Shown here: positions 14,201 to 33,299 of the stretch, in pieces
How positions within the stretch are numbered: position 1 is the stretch's first letter
Layout: every line of letters starts with the position of its first letter
Translations under genes and position numbers: made by a program
Source: a virus
IMG/VR virus record: IMGVR_UViG_3300040751_001482
Coordinates: 1-35,580 of that record
Strand: one strand, 5' to 3'
DNA: 35,580 nt
The notes under the pieces: model-generated
Databases searched by the model: none
Seen by the model: only the letters and a program-made list of their open reading frames with translations
What the model was told of the DNA's origin: nothing

Positions 14201-14419
14201 TTCTTCACAATTAAGATATTCAATAAATGTACATTCTTCACCATTAAATTCTTCTAAAATTTCATCATTATTATCTATTACGTTATAACACCCACTAATT
14301 ATACCATCACAACTCACATTCCATACCTCACCAACATCTAAAGGCGTCTCACCATTAAATATAACCCTATATTTTATGGTGTCGTCACAACTTTGTAATA
14401 TGTATTTTATTAAACTCAT
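11300..14419 (-). CDS. Cys-rich modular virion protein with TPS stalk (1039 aa)
   Basis: Unrecognised virion surface protein. The preferred start is ATG at 14419 (MSLIKYILQSCDD), which overlaps the TGA of the preceding gene as ATGA; a TTG three codons upstream is open but less likely. The protein carries eight or nine degenerate modules of 65-110 residues. Their pattern is aromatic-x-L/F-x-x-CC-D/E-N, then G-D-V, then C-Y-x-V/I, then C-x-x-C. Clear copies start at LETCCEN, LTPCCDN, VTLCCDS and VSCCDN. A TPS/TNTPS stalk lies at about residues 170-310 and a short one near 385-410. The C-terminus ends in SCSSSAC. Regular Cys pairs suggest disulfide-stabilised modules formed after lysis, which is inference. 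Confidence 0.8.
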   Translation of the reverse strand: MSLIKYILQSCDDTIKYRVIFNGETPLDVGEVWNVSCDGIISGCYNVIDNNDEILEEFNGEECTFIEYLNCEECIEKSVDIDELTADAPQSCYRWSDCDTNTEFIYTPTSYSPPNSVVLYYGVCYQLNSPPITAYEIPTDLSSIPNNLFYNKCNLCVPCDLDCALTFGEVSNTPTPTITATPTLTTTPSNTNTPSVTNTPSNTMTPGASESTTPSNTATPTLTTTPSVTNTPSNTNTPSVTPTYGLSPSVTPTNTPTISVTTTQTPSVTNTPSNTNTPSVTNTPSNTNTPSVTNTPSNTNTPSVTNTPSQTLVSSNYYRLETCCENQTGEISTVEIIGGTGNVGDGFYYNGIPYYLDGTITFGQIQINVNDLIENICNSYTCPSETPTATPTLTQTPTLTLTPTPTLTVTATPSSTPPQSYSRFSLTPCCDNYHSSVTVLDNANILDSLGVNQGDVISLDNVCYTVNLPVQGVSLNTPSSQVLHNDCETCLSSQPQQYWCVYTYVACFEDQYNAGELMAAPVRYNTLLSTTNPVGGLYEHLQFTHTVTNISSQNVPFDDCYTYDSIYDETLPIKSYSGTHNGCCDTGIGAKCGGAYVVLRSCDDYYGDVTPLNGDKLDALVLMSCDYVSGSSIGGGVIQITDTINAPQLLGGTDYLGTVQDQIILEDGFSGICFTIVGETTSIKTAQNQLQGTDWATGSEVVTNCSSTNCHCLSNIGVENLSSSPVTLEYLLCGVSGSGNQDSISIPGGGNVTITDCINVNSVVLSRTNIPSFDVGDIQFDFGSSTPCDEYTYFSEVTLCCDSTDTPITGPVGLLNTLGANVNDYVVIDGNAYQITGSITTTGTQYPNATGTYTSCSNAVSNASVGCRYDFVSCCDNVASIASYYPSFSVQIPQIYDIGFTFYNTIVQPYPNQTDKCMSIQEYSGGAIDNNNDFLTGMNPNAVGCINRCSRCSFIVRPCGWSTNVHITVTVLPTPQMIPGTVWSDTGLQSWIINNGFGGLGVTNCYTILSSAGSTTNLGGYNGYSYTQTLQSSCSSSAC
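13491..13912 (-). repeat. TPS-type coding repeat in the Cys-rich gene
   Basis: TNTPSV/TNTPSN units of the same type as in the two following genes, here with variants such as TTTPSNT and a SVTPTYGLSP block. A second short stretch of TPTLT/TPTPT type lies at about 13180-13269, between two Cys modules. Confidence 0.9.
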
Positions 14420-17367
14420 CCCGTACAATTAATATTTATATTAACACCTGCATTTATTTGTATTGATTCGTTTGTAAAATCATTATTACACCCAATATTC
14501 GATATAGTAATTGTCGTATCATTTATCTCATATCCTAAACCATTTTGGTATAAATTATTTAGTGAGTTTTCTACCGCAGTTAACCATTCGTTACTACTTG
14601 GGTAGTCTCCTCCACCATATCCTGTATAAAATAAGTCTTTTCTTAACAGTGTACCGCTAAGTCTTATATCTACATACCATAAGCTTGTTAGTGTATTAAG
14701 AACACAATCACTCACAGTATATCCCTCACTTCCAACCGCACTGTTTATACTGTTTATTAATGTAGTTTGTGGGTTATTTAACCCAATATCACATGTTATG
14801 GTTTGAGTGACACAATCAGCACCTAATAATTGACCTGTAAAAGTACAGGGAATACAAGGTATTGGTACAATTTCACAACCTCTCTGTCTTCTCCAAACAA
14901 CTTTTTGTCTTTGTAAGACATTATTCTCCATTTTTTGACCTCCCGTCCATATAGTGGTTGCAGGTAACATCTGTTCTATTAGTTTCATCCAATAGTCACC
15001 GATACCATTTGTAAAATCAATCATTTTTTGGTAGGTGTATTTGTTAGATGGTATACCTACCGATTCTTCTGAGTTTAAATATTTCCAATATACCGACTGT
15101 AATGTCGGGTATCCTCCTCCTTTACCGTCTGTTATTGTTTGTCTATTTCTAACATTTATCATATTACGATAAAATGTCTGTGCAAACTCAAAAAATGTTT
15201 TTTCTCTAGGTTTAGGGTTAATTACTGTCCAATCAACACCTTTAGGATATGGATATGGTGTAGTTAAACCTGTAGAAGGAAACGGATAATTATATTTTTT
15301 TGACATATCCCATATATCGTATATAACACCCTGACCCATATTAAGACTTAGGTCTATATTTTTAGCATTTAGTACTAATTTTTCATTATCAACAACATAA
15401 TAAGAATTAAATTCTGCCTGAGTACTTCTCCTCAAACCTGTTTGACTATCAGTCCATGATTTTTTATTATCAGGAACTCTGTTCAACCCAAATCCCATGT
15501 CCATATATGGGAAATACCTAAATTTATCAAAATATTTTTCACCATATGTGAATTTTTCCAATGTTGTTTGAACATTTGGATTTTGACCTGTGAATACTGA
15601 ATTTGTGACATCTAACTCTTCAGGCGCCCTATGTTGTGGTGTTTGTTCATACCATCCAGCACCTTTTTCGAAAAACATTTCTTCGTTTGGTACCATAGCT
15701 TTGGGATAACCTTGATTGTCTACAGGGTAATCTTCTCTTGATACGTCCACGTCAGTTATTGTTAATTCGGTAGTAAATCCTGTATATGTTACACCCTCAA
15801 AACTAAATGTAACATTCGGGTCAAGTACCGGTGTTTCCGTTGTTTTTGTACCTCCTGTTATTGTTGCGTATTCCTCATTAAATCTTTCTATATTAATTGG
15901 CCCATCCGCTAAATAAATTGTTTCATTAAATTCTATTAACGCTTCAGGAGCACCTATCATTCTCATTAACGCCTCTATCGACCTTCTCGTTCCTTTAGAT
16001 TTAAATAAATAAGCAGAATTCAATATTAAATTTCTGTAATATTGATAGTCAACTTCTGTAGGTGTTTTTTCTCTAGATTGCCCAGAATATAATGCCTTAC
16101 CCTGTGTACCAAATATACTTTGTAAAAAGTTATCACTAGTAATTAGAGATATGTTAGTGTCCCAACCTAATGTTTGTGCTAAATTTTTTAATAATTGTGA
16201 AGGTATGTCGTTTTTAACTGTATAGTTAACTGAATTCATATATGATAATGCGTCTATGAATTTTTTTGTTTCATCAAAACTTCTTCCGTATAGTTGTAAT
16301 ACCTTTTCTACGTTTTGACTTTTAGTATCAAAATCTTTAAACGCGCCTGTAGTTAAAAATCTAGAAATTAAGTCGGTTCTGATGTCATCTAAATCACCAG
16401 CAATCATATCTAACTTCTTCATATAGTTATCAAACTCAGACGTTCTTATATCTAAATTCCAATAACTATCGAGAGGCCATGTAACTTCCTCATTTGCCGC
16501 ATATAATTTACCATCGTCACTTTCTCTTATAACTTTAAATTTCGCAGTATATTTAGGTGATACCAATCTATTTAATAAGAAATCTTCAATCTCATCAAAA
16601 TTATCTTGAAACTCTTTTTCAGTCTCAAACTTATTTGGTTTTAATAAAATAGATTTAGTAGATTGTGAATCTCCATTAAACGGATTACCTTCCACTGATA
16701 TAGTTACGGTACCTGCAGATAACCTAGGTGACGCATCAAAATCAACAAATTTGTACTCATTTTCTAAATCTTGAAAGAATAATGAGTATTTTAAATAACT
16801 CCTTGTTAGATTTCTTAAAGGACTAACTTCGAACGGTCTGACTGAAATATTTCTATCCGCATTTTCAGAATAATCTATATCAAAATTATTTTTAAATCTA
16901 GTGACATCAATATCAAATGTGGTTATACCTTCCACGTCATCGTAAACTATATTATACGCGGTATATCCTGTATTTAAATTATAATCAGATTTATCTACCT
17001 GTAGTGCCGCAGGAAAATAATTAATTATTTTTATTATTGAAGTAGAAAATCTTTTTCTTAGTGACCCGTATAATGCAAAATTAGTTACTTGACTAATATC
17101 GTAATTTGGGAATACTCTAAGGTTTTTAGCAACAACTAATTTAGATTCTTCCAAAGAGTTAAAATCTAAATCATTAAGTGAAATTGGATTTGAAAATACT
17201 CCTGTTTCAAAATTTCTATTGACCTTTTCTACAACACCTTTTGAAAATTCAAAATTAGCTTGCGTAAGACCTCCACCGTCTACCAATTGGAAACCAACCA
17301 GTTCATCGGAAAATGTTCCCCTCGCGTTTGGAGGTGAAGGTGGATATCTGTACTTATTATCAGCCAT
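14416..17367 (-). CDS. Baseplate protein with gpI/gp7-like motif (983 aa)
   Basis: Large baseplate-type protein. Residues about 440-485 contain LFKSKGTRRSIEALMRMIGA, which resembles the KGT...I...L..lG motif of P2 gpI-type wedge proteins, the functional counterpart of T4 gp7. Its location after gp25 and gp6 genes fits a wedge component. The N-terminal 400 residues are mixed alpha/beta with no motif I recognise. The C-terminal region (about 840-983) begins with a Cys cluster (CIPCTFTGQ) and ends in a module with LFYTGY, NEW and a terminal NINCTG that recurs in the 1040-aa protein. ATG at 17367 overlaps the previous stop by 1 nt (TAATG); its own stop overlaps the next start as ATGA. gpI/gp7 assignment is inference from one motif plus context. 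Confidence 0.7.
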   Translation of the reverse strand: MADNKYRYPPSPPNARGTFSDELVGFQLVDGGGLTQANFEFSKGVVEKVNRNFETGVFSNPISLNDLDFNSLEESKLVVAKNLRVFPNYDISQVTNFALYGSLRKRFSTSIIKIINYFPAALQVDKSDYNLNTGYTAYNIVYDDVEGITTFDIDVTRFKNNFDIDYSENADRNISVRPFEVSPLRNLTRSYLKYSLFFQDLENEYKFVDFDASPRLSAGTVTISVEGNPFNGDSQSTKSILLKPNKFETEKEFQDNFDEIEDFLLNRLVSPKYTAKFKVIRESDDGKLYAANEEVTWPLDSYWNLDIRTSEFDNYMKKLDMIAGDLDDIRTDLISRFLTTGAFKDFDTKSQNVEKVLQLYGRSFDETKKFIDALSYMNSVNYTVKNDIPSQLLKNLAQTLGWDTNISLITSDNFLQSIFGTQGKALYSGQSREKTPTEVDYQYYRNLILNSAYLFKSKGTRRSIEALMRMIGAPEALIEFNETIYLADGPINIERFNEEYATITGGTKTTETPVLDPNVTFSFEGVTYTGFTTELTITDVDVSREDYPVDNQGYPKAMVPNEEMFFEKGAGWYEQTPQHRAPEELDVTNSVFTGQNPNVQTTLEKFTYGEKYFDKFRYFPYMDMGFGLNRVPDNKKSWTDSQTGLRRSTQAEFNSYYVVDNEKLVLNAKNIDLSLNMGQGVIYDIWDMSKKYNYPFPSTGLTTPYPYPKGVDWTVINPKPREKTFFEFAQTFYRNMINVRNRQTITDGKGGGYPTLQSVYWKYLNSEESVGIPSNKYTYQKMIDFTNGIGDYWMKLIEQMLPATTIWTGGQKMENNVLQRQKVVWRRQRGCEIVPIPCIPCTFTGQLLGADCVTQTITCDIGLNNPQTTLINSINSAVGSEGYTVSDCVLNTLTSLWYVDIRLSGTLLRKDLFYTGYGGGDYPSSNEWLTAVENSLNNLYQNGLGYEINDTTITISNIGCNNDFTNESIQINAGVNININCTG

Positions 17368-19332: not shown

Positions 19333-20627
19333 GATGGATTTACATATTCATACCAATTTATTGGATTTCCGACACCTAACCTTATATCGGTTTCGGTGTC
19401 TTTTATCTCATATTCATAATTATCTATGTCTAACTGAACTTTGTAATAAAATTTCTTACTTTTTTCGAAAGTAAATTTTTCGGATAGTTGTGATTGTGGT
19501 GAATTCATCATCCTAATAAATTGTCCTGTTTTTGCATTAAAAAACTTTGCACTCATATATAGTGTATCAATATTCACATAAGTAGGATTTTTTAACCAAT
19601 AGATAAAATAACCCTCTTTATCACCAATATAGTCTAATACAAAATTTGGTAATTTTATATCTACGTTTGGTGGGGCAATGTCTAAAACCGGTGTCGCCCC
19701 TGTTCCTATACCTTGTGGGTTTGGATTTACATCTCCTCCTTCACCCGGCGGGTCAGGTTCTATAGGTGTTGTACCATCATCACCAGTAGGAAATAATGGA
19801 CCTCCACCACCCCCACTGTCACCAAAACCACCAGGACCCGGTACTAACTTATCAATTATTAAACCCTTATATGTTTTTTGATTTGTTTCTTCCGCCTTTC
19901 TTTTTTGGAGGTTTAATTCATATTCCAACTGTGCTTTATAAGCCCTATTTTCAGGGTTCATTTTCTGTTTATTTTTTGTGAGAGTTTGATTTTTTGTCAG
20001 TATCTCATTCAAAGTATCTTCATACACTTTTGCCGCCGATGAAACTGTGGTTGAATTTCTACCACCACCGCCGGCTGGTGTGTCAGGTAATACAACTGGT
20101 ATTGTGGGTCCGTTCACAGAACTTGAGGTTCCTGTAAATGGTGTTGTGTTCGATAATTTTACTTTACCTTGTTGTGTGGGTATTATTATTGTTAAATAAA
20201 TTTGTTGTGTTTCTGAGTCTGTAGTATCATATAAATCTAATTTAAAGAAACTCCTTTTAAATGAATTTGCAGTGTAGTATATCTCAGCCTCATTAAAGCT
20301 AGTACCTGTAAAATTAGGGTTTTCTGTAAAATCATAATCACTAACCCATAAATCAGTATCTGACGAGGTAGTAGAGTCTACACCCACACTTCTATCAAAA
20401 AACATAAATTTATATTCAATACTTGTTTTTGTTTCTCCTTGATAAACCCAATCTTTATGTGCGTATCGAGTTACTTCAAAATCTTCAATAGGATTTATAA
20501 CTTCCTCCGTGACTTTTTCCTCATACTTATCCAATAAATCATCTCTACCTAATAAATCTGTTTTTATTTGGATGGGAATATTAAGGTATCTATCTTCACT
20601 ATTAAGATTAAATTTATACTTATTCAC
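19329..20627 (-). CDS. Structural protein with helical and Gly/Pro-rich linker (432 aa)
   Basis: A GTG start at 20627 overlaps the stop of the 571-aa gene by 8 nt (GTGAATAA); no nearby ATG is available. Residues 1-180 are mixed. Residues about 196-255 are rich in K, E, Q and N and probably form a long helix or coiled coil. Residues about 262-310 form a Gly/Pro/Asp-rich linker (GPGGFGDSGGGGGPLFPTG). A compact C-terminal domain (about 315-432) follows. The two-domain-plus-hinge layout is typical of a structural connector. No family recognised. Confidence 0.7.
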   Translation of the reverse strand: MNKYKFNLNSEDRYLNIPIQIKTDLLGRDDLLDKYEEKVTEEVINPIEDFEVTRYAHKDWVYQGETKTSIEYKFMFFDRSVGVDSTTSSDTDLWVSDYDFTENPNFTGTSFNEAEIYYTANSFKRSFFKLDLYDTTDSETQQIYLTIIIPTQQGKVKLSNTTPFTGTSSSVNGPTIPVVLPDTPAGGGGRNSTTVSSAAKVYEDTLNEILTKNQTLTKNKQKMNPENRAYKAQLEYELNLQKRKAEETNQKTYKGLIIDKLVPGPGGFGDSGGGGGPLFPTGDDGTTPIEPDPPGEGGDVNPNPQGIGTGATPVLDIAPPNVDIKLPNFVLDYIGDKEGYFIYWLKNPTYVNIDTLYMSAKFFNAKTGQFIRMMNSPQSQLSEKFTFEKSKKFYYKVQLDIDNYEYEIKDTETDIRLGVGNPINWYEYVNPS

Positions 20628-22335
20628 AATCGTCAGTTATTGGTGCAAAAATTATGTCATTAAATAGGTTTATATTTCGTTTCATCGGAGTTAATAAGAA
20701 CATAATATTTTTAAATGGATAATGACATCCGTTTAAAAAAGGTATATTTAATCCGTTACCATCAGTATCTATATAACCATAATTATATAAGTCTCTCCAT
20801 CTCCACTGATTATCATACTTAGAGAAAAACGCATAATCAGGAATTAAATCTACTTTGTCTTTATCTCCCGTTTCTATATAATCAGAATAAACCCTAATAG
20901 GTACACTATAATGAGGTTCATATGTATATCCATCAGGTAAGTTGTTATTACTTTCGTTATCAAAAATATTTGGGTTATAGGATATTTTGTGATTAATTTT
21001 ACTTAATACAGTTTCCTGTTGTTCGTAATTATTGTACTCACAAACAGACCCCATAATTTCATGACCTACGGGTAATGTTTTATTATAATAAAAATTCAAA
21101 CCGTCTTTTTGATAGTTTCCGTTTGGTATGTCGTCTCTATTAAGTGTATTATTGATTGACCACCAACTATCTATTTCAGTATCTTTAAAATTTAAATCCC
21201 ATCCCACTTGTATTCCTGTTTCGTTATTAGCGTAATACGGATTATTAAACCATCCCATATAACCTCTGTTTACTATTGTTACGAATAACTCGGTGATTGG
21301 CCGGTCTAAATTATCTCTTAAATCACTAATATCAATATCTTTATCAAAAGAAAAACCCACAGTAAGTGAACCATCTTTTATTGACGTTCTTTGTATGTTA
21401 TTAGGTGTAAGTGCAGAATATTCCAATTGTTTTTTAATTGGGAAAGGGTTCCTTTCAAACCCCATCTTAGTTATGTCTGCAAAACTATTTTTAGTTAAAA
21501 TTTTATGTTTTCTAACATAATATTCAGAAGTGGTTTCTAATTTATTATTTATATCAGCAACTCTTTTAAAATTCCCAACCGCATAATTTCCAAACAAAGG
21601 GTCATCAAATCCATAATCAAAAATAGAAAAAACAGTATCTTCGTTACCATATGAACTATCACCTAAACTATATACCTCAAAATATTGTTTACCATCTATA
21701 ACATTTTTCGTATAAATCCAATCACCCACAGAAAGGTTATGTTTAAAACCGCAATAAAACGTTATTAGGTTTTTACCCTTATTTTGTTTATTGAGAATGT
21801 AATAAGGTACACCGTCCGTAACTATAAAACTATTTACTGATGTTCCACTTTCGTAGTTAACTCTTTGTGTTAAATATTGGTCTGTTTTTTTTTCTGACGC
21901 ATATGAAACATATACCGACCAATTATATGTTGTGGCACTTTTATTAACAAAGGGTATATGCCCATCAATACCTCTTGTTCTATAAAATGTAAATTCATCA
22001 TATTGTGGATAACCCTTCCAAGGTGCATTATTTTCAACGGAGTTTAAGGTGTCAATATAAAATAACGAATTTAAAAATGGTTCATAGGTTGTTTGACCAC
22101 TTATAGTATTGTTAAATATGTTAGTTATCTTACCCGCGATTCTAAAAGTGGAAGATGATTGTCTCTCTTTATCAAACCTTTCTTCTAAGTTTACTATGAT
22201 AGACCTATCACCTTCTATTATATTTTTTTTAGTGTTTTCTAAATTTACATTAACAGATACATCATTATTAGAGGCACCCGCAAATCGGTCTTCACCTCTA
22301 ATTATTCTAATTTCTGACGATTTTTTATTAGTCAT
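20620..22335 (-). CDS. Uncharacterised structural protein (571 aa)
   Basis: ATG at 22335 overlaps the stop of the 1832-aa gene by one base (TAATG). The protein starts MTNKKSSEIRIIRGEDRFAG, is rich in Asn, Tyr and Asp, and has no signal peptide, membrane segment or catalytic motif that I can see. Its place after gp25, gp6 and a large baseplate protein parallels gp8 or later wedge genes in cyanophage-type T4 relatives, but I see no sequence motif that supports a specific equivalence. Confidence 0.72.
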   Translation of the reverse strand: MTNKKSSEIRIIRGEDRFAGASNNDVSVNVNLENTKKNIIEGDRSIIVNLEERFDKERQSSSTFRIAGKITNIFNNTISGQTTYEPFLNSLFYIDTLNSVENNAPWKGYPQYDEFTFYRTRGIDGHIPFVNKSATTYNWSVYVSYASEKKTDQYLTQRVNYESGTSVNSFIVTDGVPYYILNKQNKGKNLITFYCGFKHNLSVGDWIYTKNVIDGKQYFEVYSLGDSSYGNEDTVFSIFDYGFDDPLFGNYAVGNFKRVADINNKLETTSEYYVRKHKILTKNSFADITKMGFERNPFPIKKQLEYSALTPNNIQRTSIKDGSLTVGFSFDKDIDISDLRDNLDRPITELFVTIVNRGYMGWFNNPYYANNETGIQVGWDLNFKDTEIDSWWSINNTLNRDDIPNGNYQKDGLNFYYNKTLPVGHEIMGSVCEYNNYEQQETVLSKINHKISYNPNIFDNESNNNLPDGYTYEPHYSVPIRVYSDYIETGDKDKVDLIPDYAFFSKYDNQWRWRDLYNYGYIDTDGNGLNIPFLNGCHYPFKNIMFLLTPMKRNINLFNDIIFAPITDDCE

Positions 22336-25300
22336 TATAAATTAAAAATATATTTCTTTATGTATCTATTTACTGCGGATTTACCTCTTTTTAAACCAAA
22401 ATAAAAATAGAACGGAGAACCAACTCTAAAGTTATTACTATTCGAATTATTTGATGGGAAAGAATCGTATTCAGGGTCTGTAGAACTTCTGTTAAATATA
22501 TGACCTTTACCATAACCATAATTAGGTTTCATATAGGGTTGGTTAGACTCAAAAAAATCATCTCCTTGATATTTTGATGCAAAGATGTACTCCGTTTGCC
22601 AATTATTATACTCTGTACCAAATAATCCGTTACTATTCATATACCACATATAGTACGGTACTATTTGTGTTTTCTCATATCCAAAATAATTTGTAGGACC
22701 TTCAGGATTTGTACCAAACGTAGTTGTACCGTTAGTCAATACTCTTCTGTCTATAGTATTTGAACTGAACCATATACCAAATCTATCGTCAGCAACCGTA
22801 ATTGCATCGTCACAATAATTTCCGTCTAAAAATGGTACTACACCATATTCCGAATTAATTGCAACCATCTGAGCGAAGTCTCCATCAACCCTTGCGTCAA
22901 AGAATCGACTTAAAGCGGTACCCAACTCTCTTGAGAATAATTGTCCGATTGATGCGTCACCAGTATTACTAAATTGTTCTAAGAAACTTGTATTTGCTAA
23001 TCTAGATAATAAAAATAAATTCACTACATCTGTTGGGTTTTGGTAGGACGTAGACGTTATTGTGTCAATTATATATCCTTCAAAATCGGGTGAGAAAGCA
23101 ATTTCTTTAGTAAACTCGTCTCTAGGCCCCAATTCCATAATAGTAGTGGGGAACCATATATTCTTTAAGTTTTGACCGTAATAGTAGTCTCTACTAGGTA
23201 CCTGACCCACAAACTGATTAATATTATCGTCAAATGGTGTTGACCTATAATAAAAAGAGTTAGTGTCGGTATTAAAATATATTGGACCCTGTCTTCTTAA
23301 TGCGGCAAATGGTTGTTGTGGGTCACCACAATACCTATACCTTTTAACTTCATTTTCACTTCCGTATAATGTTTGTTTTTGAAAAGTTGGCATGTATAAA
23401 GTTCCGTTTAACCAATTGTTTTGGAATGATTCTCCAATAACTCCCTGACATACCGCAAACATAAATCTCATTCTTGTACGATATTCAAAAAACATTTCAA
23501 TATCCGCCCTTAGAGTCCTAACCGGTTTTTTAATTACAAAAGTATAACAACCATTATTAAGTCTTTGGTCTGAACTTATATTCCACTCGTCATCTAATGG
23601 TATATCACAAGGTTGTTCTACTCCGAAACTTTCACCACTACCACTATAACAACCTAATGGTACCATGGCATCGCAATTAAATGTTGATAGTAATAATGAT
23701 GTTTCACAATTAGTGTCTTCAATCATATCTTCATACGTACCACTTGCATCTGTAGGTACTATGGAACCCGCGATGTCTGTAACAGTACCATCATCTTCAG
23801 CTAAAAATAACTGTTGTCTTAAATTTAAATGTAGAGCATATCTTCTATATTGTATCTTTTTACTTGCCACGAATACTCCAAAATCTGGTGAGTCAAAATT
23901 ATCAGATGATGGTATTCTATCTGAGCGGAATAATATTTTTTGACTATTAACCATCTTAGTGTGTGGTACACCTTCGCTCTCATCACCATCTTTATAATCT
24001 TCAGGTAAATATAAAGGTGAAACAGTTATTAACTGTCTATTACCATTAGCGGATAACTGTCTTCTTCTACTATCTGGGTTTGTTTGCATATCATCCCCAT
24101 CCGCGTTATTTGGTCCTCTATAATTATACTGATATCCACAACCTTCAATACTTCTTTGAAACCATGAGTTTATTCCGTATCTTGGAAATTTACCCGAATT
24201 TAGTCCAGGTAAAACTCCTCCATTTTCTTCTGACCAATTTACCCCCAAGTAATCGGAAAACCCACTGGGTGTGTGTACCCCATTACCAAACATTCCCATC
24301 CATCTTTCAAATGAACCATTAGGGTTAGACGAACCTGAACTATATGTTCTTTTTACTTCTGTAAACTGTTTATCAAGTGACACATATTTGTTTGGACAGT
24401 AAGTATTAAACTCTTGCCATAAATTTTCGTCAGGTGTAAACAAATATGGTTTATGCCATAAGTTAGTATTAAAATCATAACCAACTATATTATCTGAAGA
24501 GTCATATCTTCTACCGTTATTATCACAATTGTGGAAATATAATTTATTCTTATTATTTAGATTTTCTTGCCATATTCTATAGTGAGCAATGGCAGTATAA
24601 TCATCATTCCTCCAAGGAGGGTTACTCATCATATCATCATTGGCCTGTATAGGTATATTTAAAAAGTAATCACCTGTAACTGTCACCGTATCTGAAAAAT
24701 CATGTAAATTATTTACTCCATGTCCAAATAACTTTGATAAGTCGTATTTAATCCTTTGTCTTGGCATATATGGGTCAACGCCTCTAACAGCAACAACAAT
24801 CCTTATACTACTAGAATCTTCGGGTGTAATAGAACCATAATTAGATGTGTTTTTAGTTATAGATTCACTATATCCCATTTCTTCTCCATTCCAGTTATTA
24901 CCATATGTTTGATAATAATCAGTTATATATCTAACTAATACACTTGCCGTTACGTTATTATACCCATCAGGTTCTGAACTGTTAGCGTCACCACTAAATC
25001 TTTTATATCTTGTATTCCACGCATTGCTATTTTGTGATGGCTCTCCTTTAGAGAAAATATCCCAAATACTAAACGTCTTTATGCATTGGAAGTATTCTAC
25101 TCCTGACTTAAAGTTATATGACATTGTGGTAGCTGTATTATATAACTGTACTGTCACATCTTTTATAGTACCTTGCCTATCTATATATCTTAAGTTTCTA
25201 TTAATATATGAAGTTTCACTACCTTCACAAGTACCTGTTATACCCGTATTATCAAATTGATTACCGTCAGGAAATGCGACATAGTTTGGGTCATTAATAT

Positions 25301-27833
25301 TTTGTGGATTATTAAAAAAGAATAATTGTCCGTTCTCCATAGTTTCTCCTGGGTCCAGTACCATAATAAACGCATTATCTAACCATCTATTAAAAGTGTT
25401 AGATGGTGGTTGTATTGAAGCGCCGGGTATCTGATTATTTAATATTTCACCTTTTATACAAGTCGTAGTTCTCATATTATACTCTAAACTATTTAAAGGT
25501 GCTGGATATTCGCCTGCACTTGATGTGTCCCATCCATTAGTATTTAGTTTATTAGTGGCAATCGCAGACTCTCCAAAATACATTTTTCTACGATTTAATA
25601 AATTAAGAGCCTGCGCCCATGTAGGTTGAGACCCACTTTTCCATCTTATCCTAACATTATTACCTTTAACAACAGGATATGCCGGTGATTTATACCACTG
25701 TACTTGGTCTCTTCTATTAAAGGAGTTGGCTACTGACCAATCACAATCTTCTATCCCGTCTCCCTCTTCTTTTAATTGTCTAGTATAATAACCGTTTTTA
25801 CTATATTCATCATAACCCGCCGACATAATACTTTTAGCGGTTATTCTATACTCCGCACTAGCAATACCATTACAGTCTTGGTCATCCCCAACACTTTCAG
25901 CACTAAATGAACCCTGATAAAGTTCAGTATAAGAAGCGTCAATTAATGGTCCAAAATTAACTTCATCTGCATAACTCTCTAATTGTGATGCAGTATCACT
26001 ACTTTCCTCTTCAGGTATACCTGAATCACATGCACAGGCTTCACAATCAGGATAACTTATCATCGGTAATGTAATATTACTAAATGGACTATCTTTTGGT
26101 GGTGGTGTTATTTCTTTTTTAACACAATCTTCTTTTGATTTTTTTCTTGAGAAGAATGCAACAATTAAACATATACTATATAATACAAAGTTAATTATCG
26201 CCTTTATGACTATTATTATCGCTCTAACTAATGGCCATATTAATGTTATAACATGAGCCACCACTAGTAACGCAATTAAAGGTAGAGTTAATATAGATAT
26301 TAAAAAGTTAAATAAGAAAATTAAAAAATTACCATTTCTTTGCGCGTCATTAACAGGTAACGGGTTATTTTCACTTTGACAGGTTTTATCATTTATTTCT
26401 TTTATACCTAAGTGTTTTATTCTATTTCTTCCCCATTTAAACCTATCAATATGAGATGCCACAGTATAAACTTTGTTGTAATTAAATTGATAGAAGCTGT
26501 CTTCGCAATTTATTGCCGCGACTTTATCATAGTAGTCATCCCAATTTAATGAAAACGCATAAGATTTGTTTCTTTCTTCATCTGTAGGTATAAGTGTTTC
26601 AAGATACTCTCTTCTTTCTGCTTGATTTTCAGGTATTTCTTCTATTGTTGTTCCTGTCCACCCGTGTTCTCTAATGTTTGGTATTAAGTAATCCGCTCTT
26701 ATTATATCATTTTTTAATCCGTTCTCGTTTTGGTACTTTATCCTAAATCTGTATTTACCTTTGGTTGGTATACCTACAGTAGGGTCTAACGAAATAACTT
26801 GTTCCCCAAATTCATTAGTTATAACATAGTCTAGATTCATGGGTAGGTCGACCATCCATGTGCCATTCTCATCTATTACATTACCTCCGTCCTCTAAAAA
26901 GTATTGTTCTAATATTGGTTGTCCTTCTGAATCTACATCAATTGTTTGTCTTAATGCTAAAATTTGACCTGGTCCCGCGACAGTATCACATAATTTACCT
27001 AAATCATTTTTTGGTTTACAATTACCTTTTAGGAAATCATCTTCAGTACTAGTAAATAATGACCCCATAAAAATAGCCTGTGGTGATATTTCAATACCTA
27101 AATCTCTTAAATCAAAATCTGAACGAGTAATACCTATGTCACATAATTCATTATCCCCCCAAAATGGTGTTACTTCAACTTCAACAACACTATTAACGAT
27201 TTGTGGTAAACTATCTAAGTCTTGTGACGCCTTAAAATTTTGTCCGTTAAACTGAGAGGGTGCCCCCATACCCATCCTTATTAGGTCAGCTGGTCTTAAA
27301 GAAAATTGACCCATATTAGATAGGTCTAAATCCATCACTAATTTATGCTGCCCTAATGGAACACCAACAATCATAAAATCACCAGATTCGTTAGTTTTTA
27401 CGGTATATTTATAATATTTTTCATAAACCTGTAATACTTCTTTTCTTGTTAAAACGTCCTCTCTATCAGGGAATGTACCTGTAGGTGTGTGTCCTCCGTA
27501 TTCTTTTTTGTACGGTAATAAATTATATCTATACCCATCATCATTTTTAGTTTTTAGATTTTTATATGGGTAAAGTGTAGATATGATAGGGTTATTTTCA
27601 TCTACATTATCTAATGGTACAAAAACAGATATTGTGGCGTTTGGTATACCAAAACCTCCGTTAGCGATTACTCTACCAACAATAATACCGTAATCGGCGC
27701 AGAACCTTTCATATAAGTCCTCTTGTCTTAATTTTAAAGATAAGATTTCTAAAAAGTCAAAATCTTGTTCTATATTTATTCTGACTTCTTTATCGACACC
27801 AACTTCGGTTTTTAATCTATATGATTTTGGCAT
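22335..27833 (-). CDS. Giant baseplate/tail structural protein with hydrophobic segment (1832 aa)
   Basis: Largest gene in the window. Residues about 49-170 look like a carboxypeptidase-regulatory-like beta-sandwich (IIVGRVIANGGFGIPNATIS, then TNESGDFMIVGVPLGQHKL). Residues 503-561 are strongly hydrophobic, with only R537 and K544 as charges, followed by RKKSK and a Cys cluster (DCEACACDSG). This could make two or three membrane helices, unusual for a soluble virion protein. The remaining 1250 residues are rich in Asn, Tyr, Ser and Gly and look like beta-rich structural domains. Position directly after gp6 matches gp7 in T4 relatives, but the gpI-like motif is in the 983-aa protein, so I do not call it gp7. 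ATG at 27833 follows a 75-nt gap with a palindrome. Confidence 0.78.
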   Translation of the reverse strand: MPKSYRLKTEVGVDKEVRINIEQDFDFLEILSLKLRQEDLYERFCADYGIIVGRVIANGGFGIPNATISVFVPLDNVDENNPIISTLYPYKNLKTKNDDGYRYNLLPYKKEYGGHTPTGTFPDREDVLTRKEVLQVYEKYYKYTVKTNESGDFMIVGVPLGQHKLVMDLDLSNMGQFSLRPADLIRMGMGAPSQFNGQNFKASQDLDSLPQIVNSVVEVEVTPFWGDNELCDIGITRSDFDLRDLGIEISPQAIFMGSLFTSTEDDFLKGNCKPKNDLGKLCDTVAGPGQILALRQTIDVDSEGQPILEQYFLEDGGNVIDENGTWMVDLPMNLDYVITNEFGEQVISLDPTVGIPTKGKYRFRIKYQNENGLKNDIIRADYLIPNIREHGWTGTTIEEIPENQAERREYLETLIPTDEERNKSYAFSLNWDDYYDKVAAINCEDSFYQFNYNKVYTVASHIDRFKWGRNRIKHLGIKEINDKTCQSENNPLPVNDAQRNGNFLIFLFNFLISILTLPLIALLVVAHVITLIWPLVRAIIIVIKAIINFVLYSICLIVAFFSRKKSKEDCVKKEITPPPKDSPFSNITLPMISYPDCEACACDSGIPEEESSDTASQLESYADEVNFGPLIDASYTELYQGSFSAESVGDDQDCNGIASAEYRITAKSIMSAGYDEYSKNGYYTRQLKEEGDGIEDCDWSVANSFNRRDQVQWYKSPAYPVVKGNNVRIRWKSGSQPTWAQALNLLNRRKMYFGESAIATNKLNTNGWDTSSAGEYPAPLNSLEYNMRTTTCIKGEILNNQIPGASIQPPSNTFNRWLDNAFIMVLDPGETMENGQLFFFNNPQNINDPNYVAFPDGNQFDNTGITGTCEGSETSYINRNLRYIDRQGTIKDVTVQLYNTATTMSYNFKSGVEYFQCIKTFSIWDIFSKGEPSQNSNAWNTRYKRFSGDANSSEPDGYNNVTASVLVRYITDYYQTYGNNWNGEEMGYSESITKNTSNYGSITPEDSSSIRIVVAVRGVDPYMPRQRIKYDLSKLFGHGVNNLHDFSDTVTVTGDYFLNIPIQANDDMMSNPPWRNDDYTAIAHYRIWQENLNNKNKLYFHNCDNNGRRYDSSDNIVGYDFNTNLWHKPYLFTPDENLWQEFNTYCPNKYVSLDKQFTEVKRTYSSGSSNPNGSFERWMGMFGNGVHTPSGFSDYLGVNWSEENGGVLPGLNSGKFPRYGINSWFQRSIEGCGYQYNYRGPNNADGDDMQTNPDSRRRQLSANGNRQLITVSPLYLPEDYKDGDESEGVPHTKMVNSQKILFRSDRIPSSDNFDSPDFGVFVASKKIQYRRYALHLNLRQQLFLAEDDGTVTDIAGSIVPTDASGTYEDMIEDTNCETSLLLSTFNCDAMVPLGCYSGSGESFGVEQPCDIPLDDEWNISSDQRLNNGCYTFVIKKPVRTLRADIEMFFEYRTRMRFMFAVCQGVIGESFQNNWLNGTLYMPTFQKQTLYGSENEVKRYRYCGDPQQPFAALRRQGPIYFNTDTNSFYYRSTPFDDNINQFVGQVPSRDYYYGQNLKNIWFPTTIMELGPRDEFTKEIAFSPDFEGYIIDTITSTSYQNPTDVVNLFLLSRLANTSFLEQFSNTGDASIGQLFSRELGTALSRFFDARVDGDFAQMVAINSEYGVVPFLDGNYCDDAITVADDRFGIWFSSNTIDRRVLTNGTTTFGTNPEGPTNYFGYEKTQIVPYYMWYMNSNGLFGTEYNNWQTEYIFASKYQGDDFFESNQPYMKPNYGYGKGHIFNRSSTDPEYDSFPSNNSNSNNFRVGSPFYFYFGLKRGKSAVNRYIKKYIFNL

Positions 27834-27908: not shown

Positions 27909-29747
27909 TTATGAAAATTCAACGTTTTTAAGTTGTTTTATCCTAACTTTGATGTCTTTTTCTGGAAATCTAACTTGGTAGATTTGATTAGGTTGTGCAA
28001 AAATGGTATCATCTATCAATTCAATTTGTTTTGTTTCCAAGTCTGAATATCTTTGTGATGTCTCTGATGATGAGTATTGACCACCTGTTTTATTAAAAAC
28101 TTTTAAATCTGCTAGTGTACTAACTCCTGGTATATCTTGTATTAATCTACGGATATCCGATATATTAACATTTTTACCTAATAAGTTAGTTCTTGGTGAC
28201 ATATATGAATTAACACTATTAACAATATTTGTTATGACTTGTCCCTGATTTTCTGTAGACTCCATTGCAACTGAAAACTCAAACTCTAAATCAATTACTT
28301 GGGCACTTCTTACTGAGATATAGTCGTTTATCATTCTGTAATTAGATAAGTAATTAGCGACATTTTCTTTTAAAGTGTTTGACACGTTACCCGTTAACTT
28401 TCCATTATTATCATAAGATAATATTTCTATTTTTATTTTATTATCTTCCTCAGTAATTGATGCTTTAGCGGGTGCACCAAATCTATTTGGCATCGTTCTT
28501 ATTAAAGAATTATAGTCATTAACCGTTACCGCCCTTTTTTGTGCCGCAAAGTTATATGTCACCATATTCCTAACTTCTTCCGTCGTTGGTAAGTCACCCC
28601 CACCAATAGCCGCAGTAACATTATTACATCTTAAACTTTTCTTAACATTTTGATTTATATTTTCTGAAGGTCCATTTAATGAAAAGTTTATAGTACCTAT
28701 TTGATTAATTGTATTAACACCTATATTAGAAACTGAACCACCCCCTATTCTATATTTTACAAAAAGTGTGGTATTAGCTTTAACCGTTTTACCTAATGCA
28801 ATATTATTTTGATAGTCTTCTAATCTTAGTGGTATCCCTGTTCTTGTAAATTGTGCCAGTTGTTCATCTGCGGTTACTGTAGCAGCCCCAAATTGTATCC
28901 TACAATATCCTTCGGGTGTGTATTCAGATATAAATCTATTTTCTGTTTCTATGTAACGGCCAACCTTTATACCTGGTTTATCAGACGCCTTTGTTGGGTC
29001 TTCAACAAATATGGTGTTTTCTGCCAATGCGTCCACTTCATACCATTTATCCGCAGCAGTTAAGAATTCATCATATGTAGGTGGACTTGAATATGTCGTA
29101 CCATCTTTTTGTATTATAGATGTAATACTAATTACATTCTTTTCAGGTAAAAAGAACTCATAGAATGGTTTAACGTCATTCGCATTAATAACCTTTTTAA
29201 ATATCTTACTTGTTCCATTAACTACAACCTCTCTTTTAGTGATAGTGTAATTTACTATTCTATTGTTAGAGTCAAAATTAGGTATTTTAGTCCTGTTTGG
29301 GTAACCTTTACTATTATATTGAGTACTAAAATCAATATCATCTACATTTTCAAATATTTGTCCAGCACCAATAAACTGTGAACCAGACCTTATCACTCCT
29401 AAGTATCTACTATCTTCTTGGTCTCCATATGCCGGTACCGTAACTGAAACATCGAGTAACGCAATCGAAGGTCGATTACCAGGTATTTTTAAACCGTAAG
29501 TTCTGGCAATATTATATATTGAAGACTTTTGTTGTGCGTACTGTAAAACCGTCTCTTGAATACTTCTGTCTATGTGATAATGTAGGTTGTCACCTATCGC
29601 AGCGTTTAAATCTAAAAATACTGAGAATACTGAAGCGTCATTAAAGTTATCGATTAAATCAGGATAATATTGTCTTGTAAAATTTATTAAGTCCTGTCTT
29701 AAACCTTCGAAATCTCTTTCCGTATATGATATTTTACGATTAGCCAT
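27909..29747 (-). CDS. 6: Baseplate wedge protein, gp6-like
   Basis: T4 gp6 / P2 gpJ / TssF-type wedge protein, which forms the inner ring of the contractile-tail baseplate. The N-terminus (ISYTERDFEGLRQDLINFTR, then YPDLIDNFNDASVFSVFLDL) is the typical gp6 opening, followed by a helical region and a long beta-rich middle. The region around residues 375-420 (GGGDLPTTEEVRNMVTYNFA ... VTVNDYNSLI) matches the conserved baseplate J-like segment. At 612 aa it is close to T4 gp6 in size. ATG at 29747 is 5 nt after the gp25 stop, the order seen in many T4 relatives. Confident from motifs and neighbours. Confidence 0.88.
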   Translation of the reverse strand: MANRKISYTERDFEGLRQDLINFTRQYYPDLIDNFNDASVFSVFLDLNAAIGDNLHYHIDRSIQETVLQYAQQKSSIYNIARTYGLKIPGNRPSIALLDVSVTVPAYGDQEDSRYLGVIRSGSQFIGAGQIFENVDDIDFSTQYNSKGYPNRTKIPNFDSNNRIVNYTITKREVVVNGTSKIFKKVINANDVKPFYEFFLPEKNVISITSIIQKDGTTYSSPPTYDEFLTAADKWYEVDALAENTIFVEDPTKASDKPGIKVGRYIETENRFISEYTPEGYCRIQFGAATVTADEQLAQFTRTGIPLRLEDYQNNIALGKTVKANTTLFVKYRIGGGSVSNIGVNTINQIGTINFSLNGPSENINQNVKKSLRCNNVTAAIGGGDLPTTEEVRNMVTYNFAAQKRAVTVNDYNSLIRTMPNRFGAPAKASITEEDNKIKIEILSYDNNGKLTGNVSNTLKENVANYLSNYRMINDYISVRSAQVIDLEFEFSVAMESTENQGQVITNIVNSVNSYMSPRTNLLGKNVNISDIRRLIQDIPGVSTLADLKVFNKTGGQYSSSETSQRYSDLETKQIELIDDTIFAQPNQIYQVRFPEKDIKVRIKQLKNVEFS

Positions 29748-29752
29748 CTAAT

Positions 29753-30232
29753 TTAAATATTAATTATTATAAAGTCCTTACTTTCAAAAGTATCACTCTT
29801 TACTGAATAGTCTATCCTAACTTTAGCAGTATATTCATCAACTCCTTCACCCGCAGTTCTAAAGATGTCAAACATTTCGTATGATGAGTTTTGGTCTTCT
29901 ATGTTTAAATCACCAATAGGACTTTTATCATCTTCAGTATATGGTGTTATACTAATTTCATTTAATAGCAGATTTGGGATGTATTTTTCAACTGCCGTTT
30001 TTATGTCTGATTTTATTGCGTCGAATGTTGGTCCATCCATAGGTTCAAAAATAAATTCATATATTCTTGTTCCAAAATCAGGTAAATAGTATCTACTACC
30101 TTTTCTAGTTAAAATTAAATGTAATAAATCAGCCCTTACTTCCTCGCCAACATCTTTTGTTAGTGATAAGTATTTACCTTCAATACTTTCTTTAAAGGGA
30201 AAATTAATACCATATGTTTTATTTATCGCCAT
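29753..30232 (-). CDS. 25: Baseplate wedge protein, gp25-like
   Basis: Small wedge protein of the gp25/gpW(P2)/TssE family that links the sheath to the baseplate. The family core is visible: RADLLHLILTRKGSRYYLPD then FGTRIYEFIFEP (residues 33-64), matching the LI.T..GeR...PdFG....lFEP signature. At 159 aa it is slightly longer than T4 gp25. It is the first gene of the structural operon: a terminator lies just upstream, and a candidate promoter overlaps it. ATG at 30232 has an A/T-rich leader without Shine-Dalgarno sequence. Confidence 0.92.
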   Translation of the reverse strand: MAINKTYGINFPFKESIEGKYLSLTKDVGEEVRADLLHLILTRKGSRYYLPDFGTRIYEFIFEPMDGPTFDAIKSDIKTAVEKYIPNLLLNEISITPYTEDDKSPIGDLNIEDQNSSYEMFDIFRTAGEGVDEYTAKVRIDYSVKSDTFESKDFIIINI

Positions 30233-30295: not shown

Positions 30296-32002
30296 TTATC
30301 CTTCACACGCTACGCATTGTAGGTCGTTTAAATTTAGTTTTTTCCTCGCGAATGCTTGAGCGGAATTCATAGAGTGTTGGTAGTATAGAGTTTTAATCCC
30401 TAACTTCCACGCATCTATTAATAGTTTATTCACATCTCTTGTCGGCATATCAGGAGAAATCATTAGATTTAAAGATTGTGATTGGTCAATAAAATCTTGT
30501 CTTATAGCCGCCTGATTAATGATTGACGCCTGATTAATTTCTGCAAAAGTTCTAAATATGTTTTTCTGTTCATCATTTAAAAAATCTAAATGTTGAACCG
30601 AACCATCTTTCTTCTTAATACTATCCCAAACTTCTTTAGTGTCTTTATCCATTTCATTCAAAAGATTTTTAAGTACAGGATTTTTAATTGTGACTTTCAT
30701 TTTAGCAACATCTTTAACGTAACAATTTGACCATATCGGTTCAATCGATTGTGACACCTGTCCTAAAATAAATGCCGACGATGTGGTTGGTGCAATAGCA
30801 TTTAAGGTAACATTTCGTCTACCATAACCTTCAAGATATTCAGGTTCTCCAAACATATCCGCCAATTCTTTAGATGCATTATATGATTTTTCTTTTATTA
30901 GTTTAAAAACTTCAACATTTAATTTAGCACTATCTACAGTATCAAAACCCAAACCTTTTGATTGTAACAGTGAGTGCCAACCTAAAACACCTAATCCAAG
31001 GGCTCTTTGTCTTTTTGCGAAATTGTAAGCCTTTTCTAAGTAGAAAAATGCCCTTTTACCTTCAATAGTTCCGTTGTCTCTAATATCTTCAATTTTAGTC
31101 AAAAACTCAGTAACAACGGCGTCTAAGAAATAAGTCATAGTTTCAACTGCATCAGTGTCTTTCCATTCATCATAATGAAGCACATTCATAGATGATAGGA
31201 CACAAACAAATGACTCTTCTTCTGAATTGTGTAATGCAATCTCAGAACAAAGATTAGAGTTATATATTTTAGCTCCTTTATCTTGATATACATCAGGTGA
31301 CTTTTTGTTCATAGTATCAGTAAACATAATGTATGGATAACCTATCTCTCCTCTTCTTTGAATCACCTTAGCCCATATCGCCCTTTTTTCTTCGTCACCT
31401 TCAATCATATCATACATAAAATCATCGGTAACTGTAACCGCATGTGTTAAATCCTGAATAGGGAAACCTTCGGTACCAATTTCTAAAAACTCCATAATAT
31501 CAGGATGTTCAACGGGTAGATATGGTGAGAATCTACCTCTCCTAGTAGACCCCTGTGATATGTTATCTACAACACTTTCAAATAGGTTCATAAAGTGAAC
31601 CGCACCAGGAGCATGACCATTGTCTGTAATTTCTGCACCACGTTCTCTGATATTACCAAAGTATCCTGAGGTACCTCCACCCATTTTACTCATTTCACCA
31701 ACTTCCGCCTGAGTATAAAGAATCGACTCAATATTATCACCAATATTAGAACCAAAACAACTTACTGGTAATCCTCTTTTTTTACCAAAGTTAGCCCATA
31801 CAGGTGAAGATAGTGAGTACCACCCTTTACTCATATAGTTGTAAAATTTATCAGAAAAACCTTCCATACCTAAAAGTTTTTCAGCATGGTCGGCAATTGT
31901 TCTAATTCTTTCTAAAGGCTCTTCACCTTCACTCAAATATCCTCTACGAAGAAATGTTATAGACTCCTCGTTAATCCAATCAAATGGTTTTCTCTCTTTC
32001 AT
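30296..32002 (-). CDS. nrdA: Class I ribonucleotide reductase, catalytic subunit (no ATP-cone)
   Basis: Reduces ribonucleoside diphosphates to deoxy forms for phage DNA synthesis, together with NrdB. Key residues are visible: C82 (LPVSCFG) and C267 (FVCVLSSMN) as the redox pair; N250, C252 and E254 (NSNLCSEI) at the active site; Y540-Y541 (TLYYQHS) in the radical path; C-terminal CVACEG (C563, C566) for re-reduction. At 568 aa it is clearly shorter than E. coli or T4 NrdA (about 750-760 aa), and it begins directly in the catalytic region without an ATP-cone. The cone is on the partner subunit encoded 16 nt upstream. ATG at 32002; the gene ends at a terminator. Confidence 0.95.
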   Translation of the reverse strand: MKERKPFDWINEESITFLRRGYLSEGEEPLERIRTIADHAEKLLGMEGFSDKFYNYMSKGWYSLSSPVWANFGKKRGLPVSCFGSNIGDNIESILYTQAEVGEMSKMGGGTSGYFGNIRERGAEITDNGHAPGAVHFMNLFESVVDNISQGSTRRGRFSPYLPVEHPDIMEFLEIGTEGFPIQDLTHAVTVTDDFMYDMIEGDEEKRAIWAKVIQRRGEIGYPYIMFTDTMNKKSPDVYQDKGAKIYNSNLCSEIALHNSEEESFVCVLSSMNVLHYDEWKDTDAVETMTYFLDAVVTEFLTKIEDIRDNGTIEGKRAFFYLEKAYNFAKRQRALGLGVLGWHSLLQSKGLGFDTVDSAKLNVEVFKLIKEKSYNASKELADMFGEPEYLEGYGRRNVTLNAIAPTTSSAFILGQVSQSIEPIWSNCYVKDVAKMKVTIKNPVLKNLLNEMDKDTKEVWDSIKKKDGSVQHLDFLNDEQKNIFRTFAEINQASIINQAAIRQDFIDQSQSLNLMISPDMPTRDVNKLLIDAWKLGIKTLYYQHSMNSAQAFARKKLNLNDLQCVACEG

Positions 32003-32018
32003 TGTATATAGTTAATTA

Positions 32019-33299
32019 TTAAAATAAGTCGTTAGATGTAATTGATTTTGATTTTTTACTGTAGTTAATGCTTCTCTTGTTAAAGAAGTCAGTATGTTTT
32101 GTAGTTAAGATTTCATCGTCAAACCATTCGGTAGTCGACAATAAAGTTTCGTTAACTTTAAAGATACTATCAATACCAATTGAATTTAATGATACGTTAA
32201 ATCTGTGTTTTATAAACTCCATAGTTTGTTTTTTAGTTAAAAAGTCTAAGTCTCCGTTTTCAAATATCCAATTAACAATTTCCTCTTCAGCATCATATGC
32301 TTCAAGAGTTGCATCTATCAAATCTTCAACTAAATTTTCTGTCCACCAATCAGGATTTTCTTCCTTAATTAAGTTTACTAAGTCAAACCCAAATTCAGCA
32401 TGAATATTTTCTTCTTTTGAGGTTGCCTCCACTGCGTTACTAATACCCTTTAATTTATTCTTATGTTTGTTAAATGACATAATAACTAAAAACTGTGAGA
32501 ATAAAGATACATTCTCAACAAACATTGAGAACAAAATTACTGATTCAAAGTACTCTTTGTTTTCAACCGCTTTAGAGTTTACTATCGCCTTTTCCAAGTA
32601 TTTAATTCTTCTACGAATTGCAGGTACCTGTAACAAATTTTCAAACTCTTTATTAAGTCCTAATAATTGAATTAGATGTGAGTACGCATCCGCATGTCTA
32701 ACTTCAGACTCGGCAAAAGTCGCTCCGACATTACCAATTTCAGGTTTCGGCATTCTCTTGTATATGTCTCCCCAAAATGTTTTTACCGCAATTTCAATCT
32801 GAGAAATCGCTAACATAGCCCTTTGTACCGCAGACCTCTCAGTTTCATTAAGATGTACCTTAAAATCTTGTATATCCGAAGTATAATTAAACTCTGTATG
32901 AACCCAGTAGGAATGACGTATAGCATCTACATAATCGTTTAGATTTGGATAGTCATATGGTTTTAGATTAACTCTCTTAGAAAAAATGTTTGGTCTATTT
33001 TTTGCTCTATAAACTATGTATTCCTTAGCAACTTCATTCAACCCATTATCCATTAGTTTATTTTCAACCATATCATGTATTTCATCAACATGAGGTACTC
33101 TTTCTTTATTACCTCTGAACAAAGCCTTAGTTGATATTCTGGCGATTTTCTCAGCCATTTCACTATCGACCATATCAATACTACCCATAGCCTTTAATAC
33201 CGCTTTTTCAATTTTTTCAGTTTCAAATGGTACTTTATTCCCGCTTCTCTTAATTACATAACGCATATCCTTCTCTAACATATTGTTTAAGTTTTCCAT
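32019..33299 (-). CDS. nrdB: Class I ribonucleotide reductase, radical-generating subunit with N-terminal ATP-cone
   Basis: Residues about 12-103 form an ATP-cone (YVIKRSGNKVPFETEKIEKA ... AKEYIVYRAKN), the overall activity regulator normally found on NrdA. The ferritin-like domain follows. Metal ligands are visible as E199-x-x-H202 (AESEVRH), E297-x-x-H300 (KEENIH), probably E169 (ISQIE) and a glutamate at 252 or 262. Y206 sits four residues after H202, the position of the E. coli radical tyrosine Y122. Y413 in the C-terminal tail (INYSKKSK) could relay the radical to NrdA. Cone-bearing NrdB with cone-less NrdA is the arrangement described in Leeuwenhoekiella blandensis, where the metal centre is MnIII/MnIV; whether that holds here is inference. 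It is 16 nt upstream of nrdA. Confidence 0.95.
   Translation of the reverse strand: MENLNNMLEKDMRYVIKRSGNKVPFETEKIEKAVLKAMGSIDMVDSEMAEKIARISTKALFRGNKERVPHVDEIHDMVENKLMDNGLNEVAKEYIVYRAKNRPNIFSKRVNLKPYDYPNLNDYVDAIRHSYWVHTEFNYTSDIQDFKVHLNETERSAVQRAMLAISQIEIAVKTFWGDIYKRMPKPEIGNVGATFAESEVRHADAYSHLIQLLGLNKEFENLLQVPAIRRRIKYLEKAIVNSKAVENKEYFESVILFSMFVENVSLFSQFLVIMSFNKHKNKLKGISNAVEATSKEENIHAEFGFDLVNLIKEENPDWWTENLVEDLIDATLEAYDAEEEIVNWIFENGDLDFLTKKQTMEFIKHRFNVSLNSIGIDSIFKVNETLLSTTEWFDDEILTTKHTDFFNKRSINYSKKSKSITSNDLF

Follow-up and report, generated by a model that had tools for sequence, protein, structure and literature searches.

Membrane insertion is the role assigned to hydrophobic stretches of several phage tail-end proteins, namely gp9 of phi29 (PMC6542822), gp12 of Andhra (PMC9710869), pb2 of T5 (PMC10038345) and the amino-termini of the RcGTA megatron (PMC7296036). 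In phi29 gp9, the L-loop exits the knob and forms a helix barrel whose outer surface is hydrophobic (PMC6542822), and T5 pb2 contains a hydrophobic stretch of 46 residues that could accommodate two transmembrane helices and was proposed to form an outer-membrane channel (PMC10038345). In RcGTA, four cysteines hold an iron-sulfur cluster in the hub, and the megatron amino-terminus was proposed to be membrane-penetrating (PMC7296036). In Anabaena, a contractile injection system is held in the thylakoid membrane through a transmembrane domain of its tail-fibre protein, Cis13 (PMC8894136). How contractile phages pass their DNA over the last membrane, once the envelope has been pierced by the tube, is not well understood, and in the open-access literature we found no account of a contractile phage whose baseplate contains a membrane-active protein. 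If a baseplate protein carries a conserved element of membrane grade, this would mark the baseplate as a membrane-acting part.

We analyzed a 35,580-nucleotide stretch of viral DNA (the window), for which a preliminary description had pointed to a hydrophobic segment within a giant protein of 1832 residues. The gene is located in a conserved cluster on the minus strand:

29753..30232, minus strand: gp25-like baseplate wedge protein (Pfam PF04965, 3.2e-11; phrog_261, 4e-18).
27909..29747, minus strand: Baseplate J/gp6-like wedge protein (Pfam PF04865, 2.6e-7; phrog_219, 1.9e-20).
22335..27833, minus strand: gene of the giant 1832-aa baseplate-cluster protein (open reading frame and orthologue synteny).
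20620..22335, minus strand: p571, conserved cluster protein (synteny; no Pfam or PHROG match).
14416..17367, minus strand: p983, conserved cluster protein (weakly like a protein of immuto-type phages, E 1.6e-6 to 1e-3).

The 1832-aa protein is encoded between the J/gp6-like wedge gene and conserved tail genes, and the order gp25, gpJ, 1832-aa protein, p571, p432, p351, p302, p983 was constant in the viral contigs of sufficient length. Distant relatives, including contigs from Bacteroidota and Mycoplasmatota MAGs and one deposited under a Prochlorococcus single-cell genome, exhibited the same gene order where their flanks permit. Like a T4-type wedge cluster, the locus has gp25 and gp6/J as neighbours; a tail sheath gene, none of which is visible in the 35.6-kb window, is present in a 162-kb relative (G003; phrog_23, 8.9e-53), indicating that the phage group is contractile-tailed. 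Comparison of the 1832-aa protein with the known wedge families (gp7, gp8, gp10) yielded zero Pfam or PHROG matches, and its "baseplate" label derives from gene order, without a family match. Its place directly after gpJ recalls T4 gp7. Based on the neighbouring baseplate and tail genes we infer that the protein is present in the virion; the gene order suggests that this contractile-tailed, uncultured phage uses it as a structural part of its outer baseplate.

Elsewhere in the window, ribonucleotide reductase genes (30296-33299, minus strand) lie between a DnaB-like helicase gene and the baseplate genes; at this site the proteins of the relatives L089, L099, L104, L113, L117 and L148 are just 22-25% identical to those of the window. 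Two minus-strand genes encode a 934-aa protein (3162-5966) consisting mostly of GSSGTSGSSG-like repeats and a 716-aa protein (5976-8126) consisting mostly of TNTPSVTNTPS-like repeats, and the long antisense or out-of-frame reading frames over them (e.g. 6370-7968, plus strand) are by-products of the repeats.

The feature under study is the following:

26151..26327, minus strand: hydrophobic segment, residues 503-561, FLIFLFNFLISILTLPLIALLVVAHVITLIWPLVRAIIIVIKAIINFVLYSICLIVAFF (hydropathy; predicted helical).

The mean Kyte-Doolittle hydropathy of the segment was 2.41 over its 59 residues, whereas in 1000 shuffled versions of the protein the best window of this length averaged 0.54 ± 0.18 and reached a maximum of 1.36, confirming the earlier claim of an almost entirely hydrophobic stretch at exactly these coordinates. 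All 19-residue windows stayed at or below 1.2 in the rest of the protein and at or below 1.75 in the other 15 proteins tested from the minus-strand gene run; the segment is the only membrane-grade stretch in the 1832-aa protein and its conserved gene cluster. In the 162-kb relative the segment was the strongest among reading frames of 350 aa or more, one 657-aa protein exhibiting a small hydropathy peak of 2.02, and a search of this record for a tape measure protein gave no match. A simplified Hessa-type sum yielded two insertion-favourable segments at about residues 503-525 and 538-561, so that two of the two or three membrane spans proposed previously are retained and a third is not.

Profile searches of Pfam, PHROG and the PDB with the 1832-aa protein resulted in zero matches, and no relative was retrieved from 50,697 phage records by tblastn, either with this protein or with five members that diverge from it. 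Searching viral contigs with the protein gave 76 loci at first, and the profile search at least 596 matching stretches; in genome contigs, a first profile scan yielded no match and a second one with a deeper alignment five distant relatives. The phage group has hundreds of environmental members, with no cultured relative found among the phage records. One baseplate cluster resides on an 84-kb contig deposited within a Prochlorococcus single-cell genome (L265; QCKH01000004.1), which may hint that one of the distant clades infects cyanobacteria. In two relatives, a pair of overlapping frames takes the place of the single giant gene (L042, 3535-7725 and 7631-9817; L150, 3052-6600 and 6564-7877), owing either to a frameshift or to an error in sequencing. 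The Flavobacterium phage immuto and the Microcystis phage Mel-JY01, together with an uncultured phage of 484 kb (L151, L152, L153; LR756508 among them), have gpJ (27% identity) and gp25 in common with the window and encode a protein of 1265-1404 aa weakly like p983. A search of immuto, Mel-JY01 and LR756508 for the giant protein revealed nothing corresponding to it, and the reading frames over 300 aa of their clusters contained no hydrophobic segment.

The segment was present in 216/216 close relatives long enough to show it, in all 101 non-redundant relatives and in 105 of 108 non-redundant members of the wider family. The absence of the segment from homologues, named in the preliminary description as evidence against a role, thus does not apply to the main family; it does apply to three distant orthologues at the same locus, described below. 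Among 42 non-redundant members, mean pairwise identity was 62% for residues 1-500, 34% for 501-525, 26% for 526-565 and 65% at the cysteine motif (588-604). This near-universal retention, while identity drops to 26-34%, indicates selection on the hydrophobicity of the segment rather than on its letters. Its length in the 101 non-redundant relatives fell into two groups of 39-74 and 88-101 residues.

The segment and its carboxy-terminal flank comprise the following elements:

26238..26327, minus strand: helix 1, residues 503-532, almost uncharged in the 101 non-redundant members, with a weak polar stripe (N509, S/T513, T516, H527).
26253..26255, minus strand: His527, a histidine in 90 of the 96 non-redundant members with a residue there.
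26151..26231, minus strand: helix 2, residues 535-561, amphipathic with a 98 degree period.
26133..26147, minus strand: RKKSK, residues 563-567.

Across the columns 503-532 of the 101 non-redundant members, L/I/V/F account for about 69% and charged residues for less than 1%. The periodicity of helix 2 was not reached by any of 2000 column shuffles, and in the same set position 537 is K/R in 71% and position 541 is polar in 73%; in L033 and L036 this helix is markedly cationic and resembles a cationic amphipathic peptide. Basic residues flank or lie within the segment (R499, R537, K564). As described before, RKKSK follows the segment almost directly, but the cysteine cluster DCEACACDSG (596-605) only comes about 30 residues later. 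A more distant clade has a hydrophobic stretch, often with a histidine, leading into an Asn-striped helix that ends in a cysteine, an arrangement that looks related as judged by eye.

AlphaFold2 predictions were obtained for residues 1-1200 from 33 sequences, giving a poor model with a mean pLDDT of 51.5, and for residues 1-625 from 101 sequences, with a mean pLDDT of 80. The better model predicts residues 503-561 as one 59-residue helix (pLDDT about 68-84) with flexible linkers on either side, whereas the poorer one breaks it at residue 532 into two helices; as the two models differ, they are compatible with a hairpin as well as with a long helix. The part preceding the segment is organized as follows:

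26334..27833, minus strand: amino-terminal platform, residues 1-500, conserved with a mean identity of 62% (AlphaFold2).
27090..27698, minus strand: beta domain, residues 46-248, transthyretin/CnaB/carboxypeptidase-regulatory-like, a fold resemblance only.
26454..27086, minus strand: second beta domain, residues 250-460, with weak Ig/MG-like resemblance (5hcc_B, Z 5.0, 89 residues, rmsd 3.0).

For residues 46-248, VIA-align gave Z values of 5-6.4 over about 80-107 residues, with 2nsm matching 80 residues at an rmsd of 2.3 and Z 6.4. The fold search with the first model (1-1200) yielded no match under E 0.001. Cytolysin and pilin rows obtained by Foldseek with the 1-625 model were rejected as kinship, having low TM-scores and reflecting the beta domains rather than the helix. 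A tape measure assignment was likewise discarded, as it needs a long, largely helical protein and residues 1-500 and 740-1060 are beta-rich here.

The segment is flanked by conserved cysteines on both sides:

26505..26507, minus strand: Cys443, fixed in the main clade.
26379..26381, minus strand: Cys485, fixed in the main clade, 18 residues ahead of the helix.
26028..26069, minus strand: CxxCxC motif, LPMISYPDCEACAC, residues 589-602, fixed in the main clade.

All of C443, C485, C597, C600 and C602 were found in 95/95 non-redundant main-clade members reaching them; the loss of CxxCxC in L240 is only apparent, as the locus ends there. This bracketing suggests a clamp at the base of the segment, putatively formed by a metal or by disulfides, in a region where AlphaFold2 is unsure (residues 591-611). 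A distant group of five lacks C282, C443 and C485 and has 19-23 cysteines within 150 residues at or after the helix; a stretch this rich in cysteine is located at residues about 510-780 in the distant clade L249-L254.

Beyond the cysteine motif, the protein divides into two parts:

23514..26027, minus strand: variable exchanged middle module, about residues 603-1440 (window versus L007).
22335..23513, minus strand: carboxy-terminal part, about residues 1441-1832, conserved, with an FQNNWLNGTLY motif.

Between the window and L007, identity of the protein is 92-100% as far as about residue 540 and again beyond about residue 1440, the middle part exhibiting 33-85%, mostly 33-73%, and the neighbouring genes 96-99%. 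Similarly, L225 and L219 share 99% identity over residues 1-480, but within the helix identity drops to 54%, and beyond it to 46%; the helix is still hydrophobic in either protein. Judged from these alignments, the hydrophobic segment is the head of an exchanged middle module, with the exchange point near the helix start. In the tree of the amino-terminal part, long and other segment forms switch at least 14 times, a count possibly inflated by recombination inside this part, and the segment is never lost there.

The three orthologues lacking both segment and module (L266, L269 and L355; 3/108 non-redundant members of the wider family) are short forms of 731-747 aa at the same gene position, all located before p571 and L355 also after gp25 and gpJ; an 810-aa form (L268) retains a short segment. 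These short orthologues sit on long branches of an unrooted family tree and are compatible with gain as well as with loss of the module. Their occurrence indicates that the scaffold can exist without the helix, and by this comparison the segment is an add-on, apparently not required by all phages with this baseplate. Together, the natural short forms and the exchanged modules provide ready comparisons for testing its role.

Thus, the observation on the segment was right, and stronger than could be known from the single sequence, and its interpretation as a membrane-active element is plausible. We regard insertion into the host envelope, whether as an anchor or as a channel, as the likeliest role, although with somewhat less than even confidence; insertion is suggested by the composition together with the precedents of phi29 gp9, Andhra gp12 and T5 pb2. 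The hydrophobicity, helix prediction, conservation, amphipathicity, co-conserved cysteines, synteny and module exchange are observations, whereas we infer the virion location, oligomeric state, release, insertion and outcome as follows. The module would be inserted between the two parts of a scaffold (residues 1-500 and about 1440-1832), starting with the hydrophobic helix pair, bracketed by C443, C485, C597, C600 and C602, and running on into the variable region, which is probably host-facing. In the free virion, packing within the baseplate would shield the helices from water; once the host is contacted and the baseplate rearranges, they would be released and insert into a membrane of the host envelope. 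The uncharged helix 1 would face lipid, and the Asn/Lys/Arg stripe of the amphipathic helix 2 would face its neighbours or a water-filled space, resulting in a baseplate anchor or, if the copies sit near the axis, a helical channel. The preliminary description had proposed a released channel; the sequence would be about equally compatible with anchoring in the outer membrane of the host, or in the producing cell while assembly takes place.

Alternatively, the helices of neighbouring subunits could form a hydrophobic bundle buried inside the baseplate that never contacts a membrane. The single continuous helix predicted by AlphaFold2 is expected of a bundle or stalk, C485 and the CxxCxC cysteines could staple it, and the T5 pb2 carboxy-terminus forms a three-helix superhelix with buried hydrophobic residues (PMC10038345). 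However, helix 1 lacks a charged face over 30 residues in the 101 non-redundant members, which is unusual for a soluble bundle, and the segment form is freely exchanged, unlike a tight core. Furthermore, the amino- and carboxy-terminal parts occur without the segment, disfavouring both an ordinary structural core and a universal need. The ordinary buried helical core against which the preliminary description had cautioned is therefore unsupported, and we consider a buried assembly element unlikely overall, though a serious contender. If the segment were a passive linker or a recombination joint that owes its hydrophobicity to nothing but common descent, this would explain why the exchange boundary is located there, but such a reading appears highly improbable given the hydrophobicity in 216/216 relatives despite changed letters and the conservation of His527 and the helical polar pattern.

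Very hydrophobic segments are likely to be recognized by the insertion machinery of the cell, and the membrane machinery of the producing cell could recognize this one, which a model of insertion into the host must avoid. The same property would favour a segment that, during assembly, tethers the protein to the infected cell's membrane, and with it the baseplate under construction, as would the flanking basic residues. For the Anabaena system, deletion of the Cis13 transmembrane domain frees the assembly (PMC8894136). Phage particles, however, must exit the cell free, nothing points to export of the remaining protein, and the single, carboxy-terminal Cis13 helix contrasts with the internal and long segment here, rendering an assembly anchor rather improbable. 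Returning to insertion into the host envelope, a wider reading, advanced tentatively as a possibility, is that a large group of uncultured aquatic contractile-tailed phages carries an outer baseplate protein with a cysteine-clamped, membrane-inserting helix pair heading an exchangeable host-facing module; in such phages the baseplate itself would grip or perforate the host membrane. To our knowledge, no such gripping or perforation has been described for contractile tails.

In BFVD, the amino-terminal part of the 1832-aa protein has an uncharacterised homologue in Myoviridae sp. ctPuP5 (A0A8S5LA66; 35% identity, Foldseek E 5e-46). With Cis13 it shares a transmembrane-type helix on a contractile-system component near the baseplate, the Cis13 helix being single, terminal and anchored in the producing cell. 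RcGTA likewise combines cysteines and a membrane-type segment among its distal tail proteins, although distributed over two proteins (hub and megatron) instead of one. Compared with a gpL-type Fe-S tail tip protein, in which four cysteines bind an Fe-S cluster, the cysteines are conserved here and a bound metal is putative. T5 pb2 resembles the protein in its long hydrophobic stretch fitting two transmembrane helices, but is a tape measure inside a non-contractile tail tube, in contrast to the beta domains and wedge-cluster location found here. No PHROG or PDB sequence match indicated kinship with gp9 or gp12, nor did any Foldseek or VIA row, in lists that barely test the helix. As in phi29 gp9 and Andhra gp12, an internal helical hydrophobic stretch of tens of residues is present in a large tail-end protein. 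Those proteins belong to short-tailed phages of Gram-positive hosts and form the tail knob tube itself, whereas the 1832-aa protein belongs to a contractile-tail baseplate cluster, has no sequence match to them and combines its hydrophobic stretch with a cysteine cluster and an exchangeable module.
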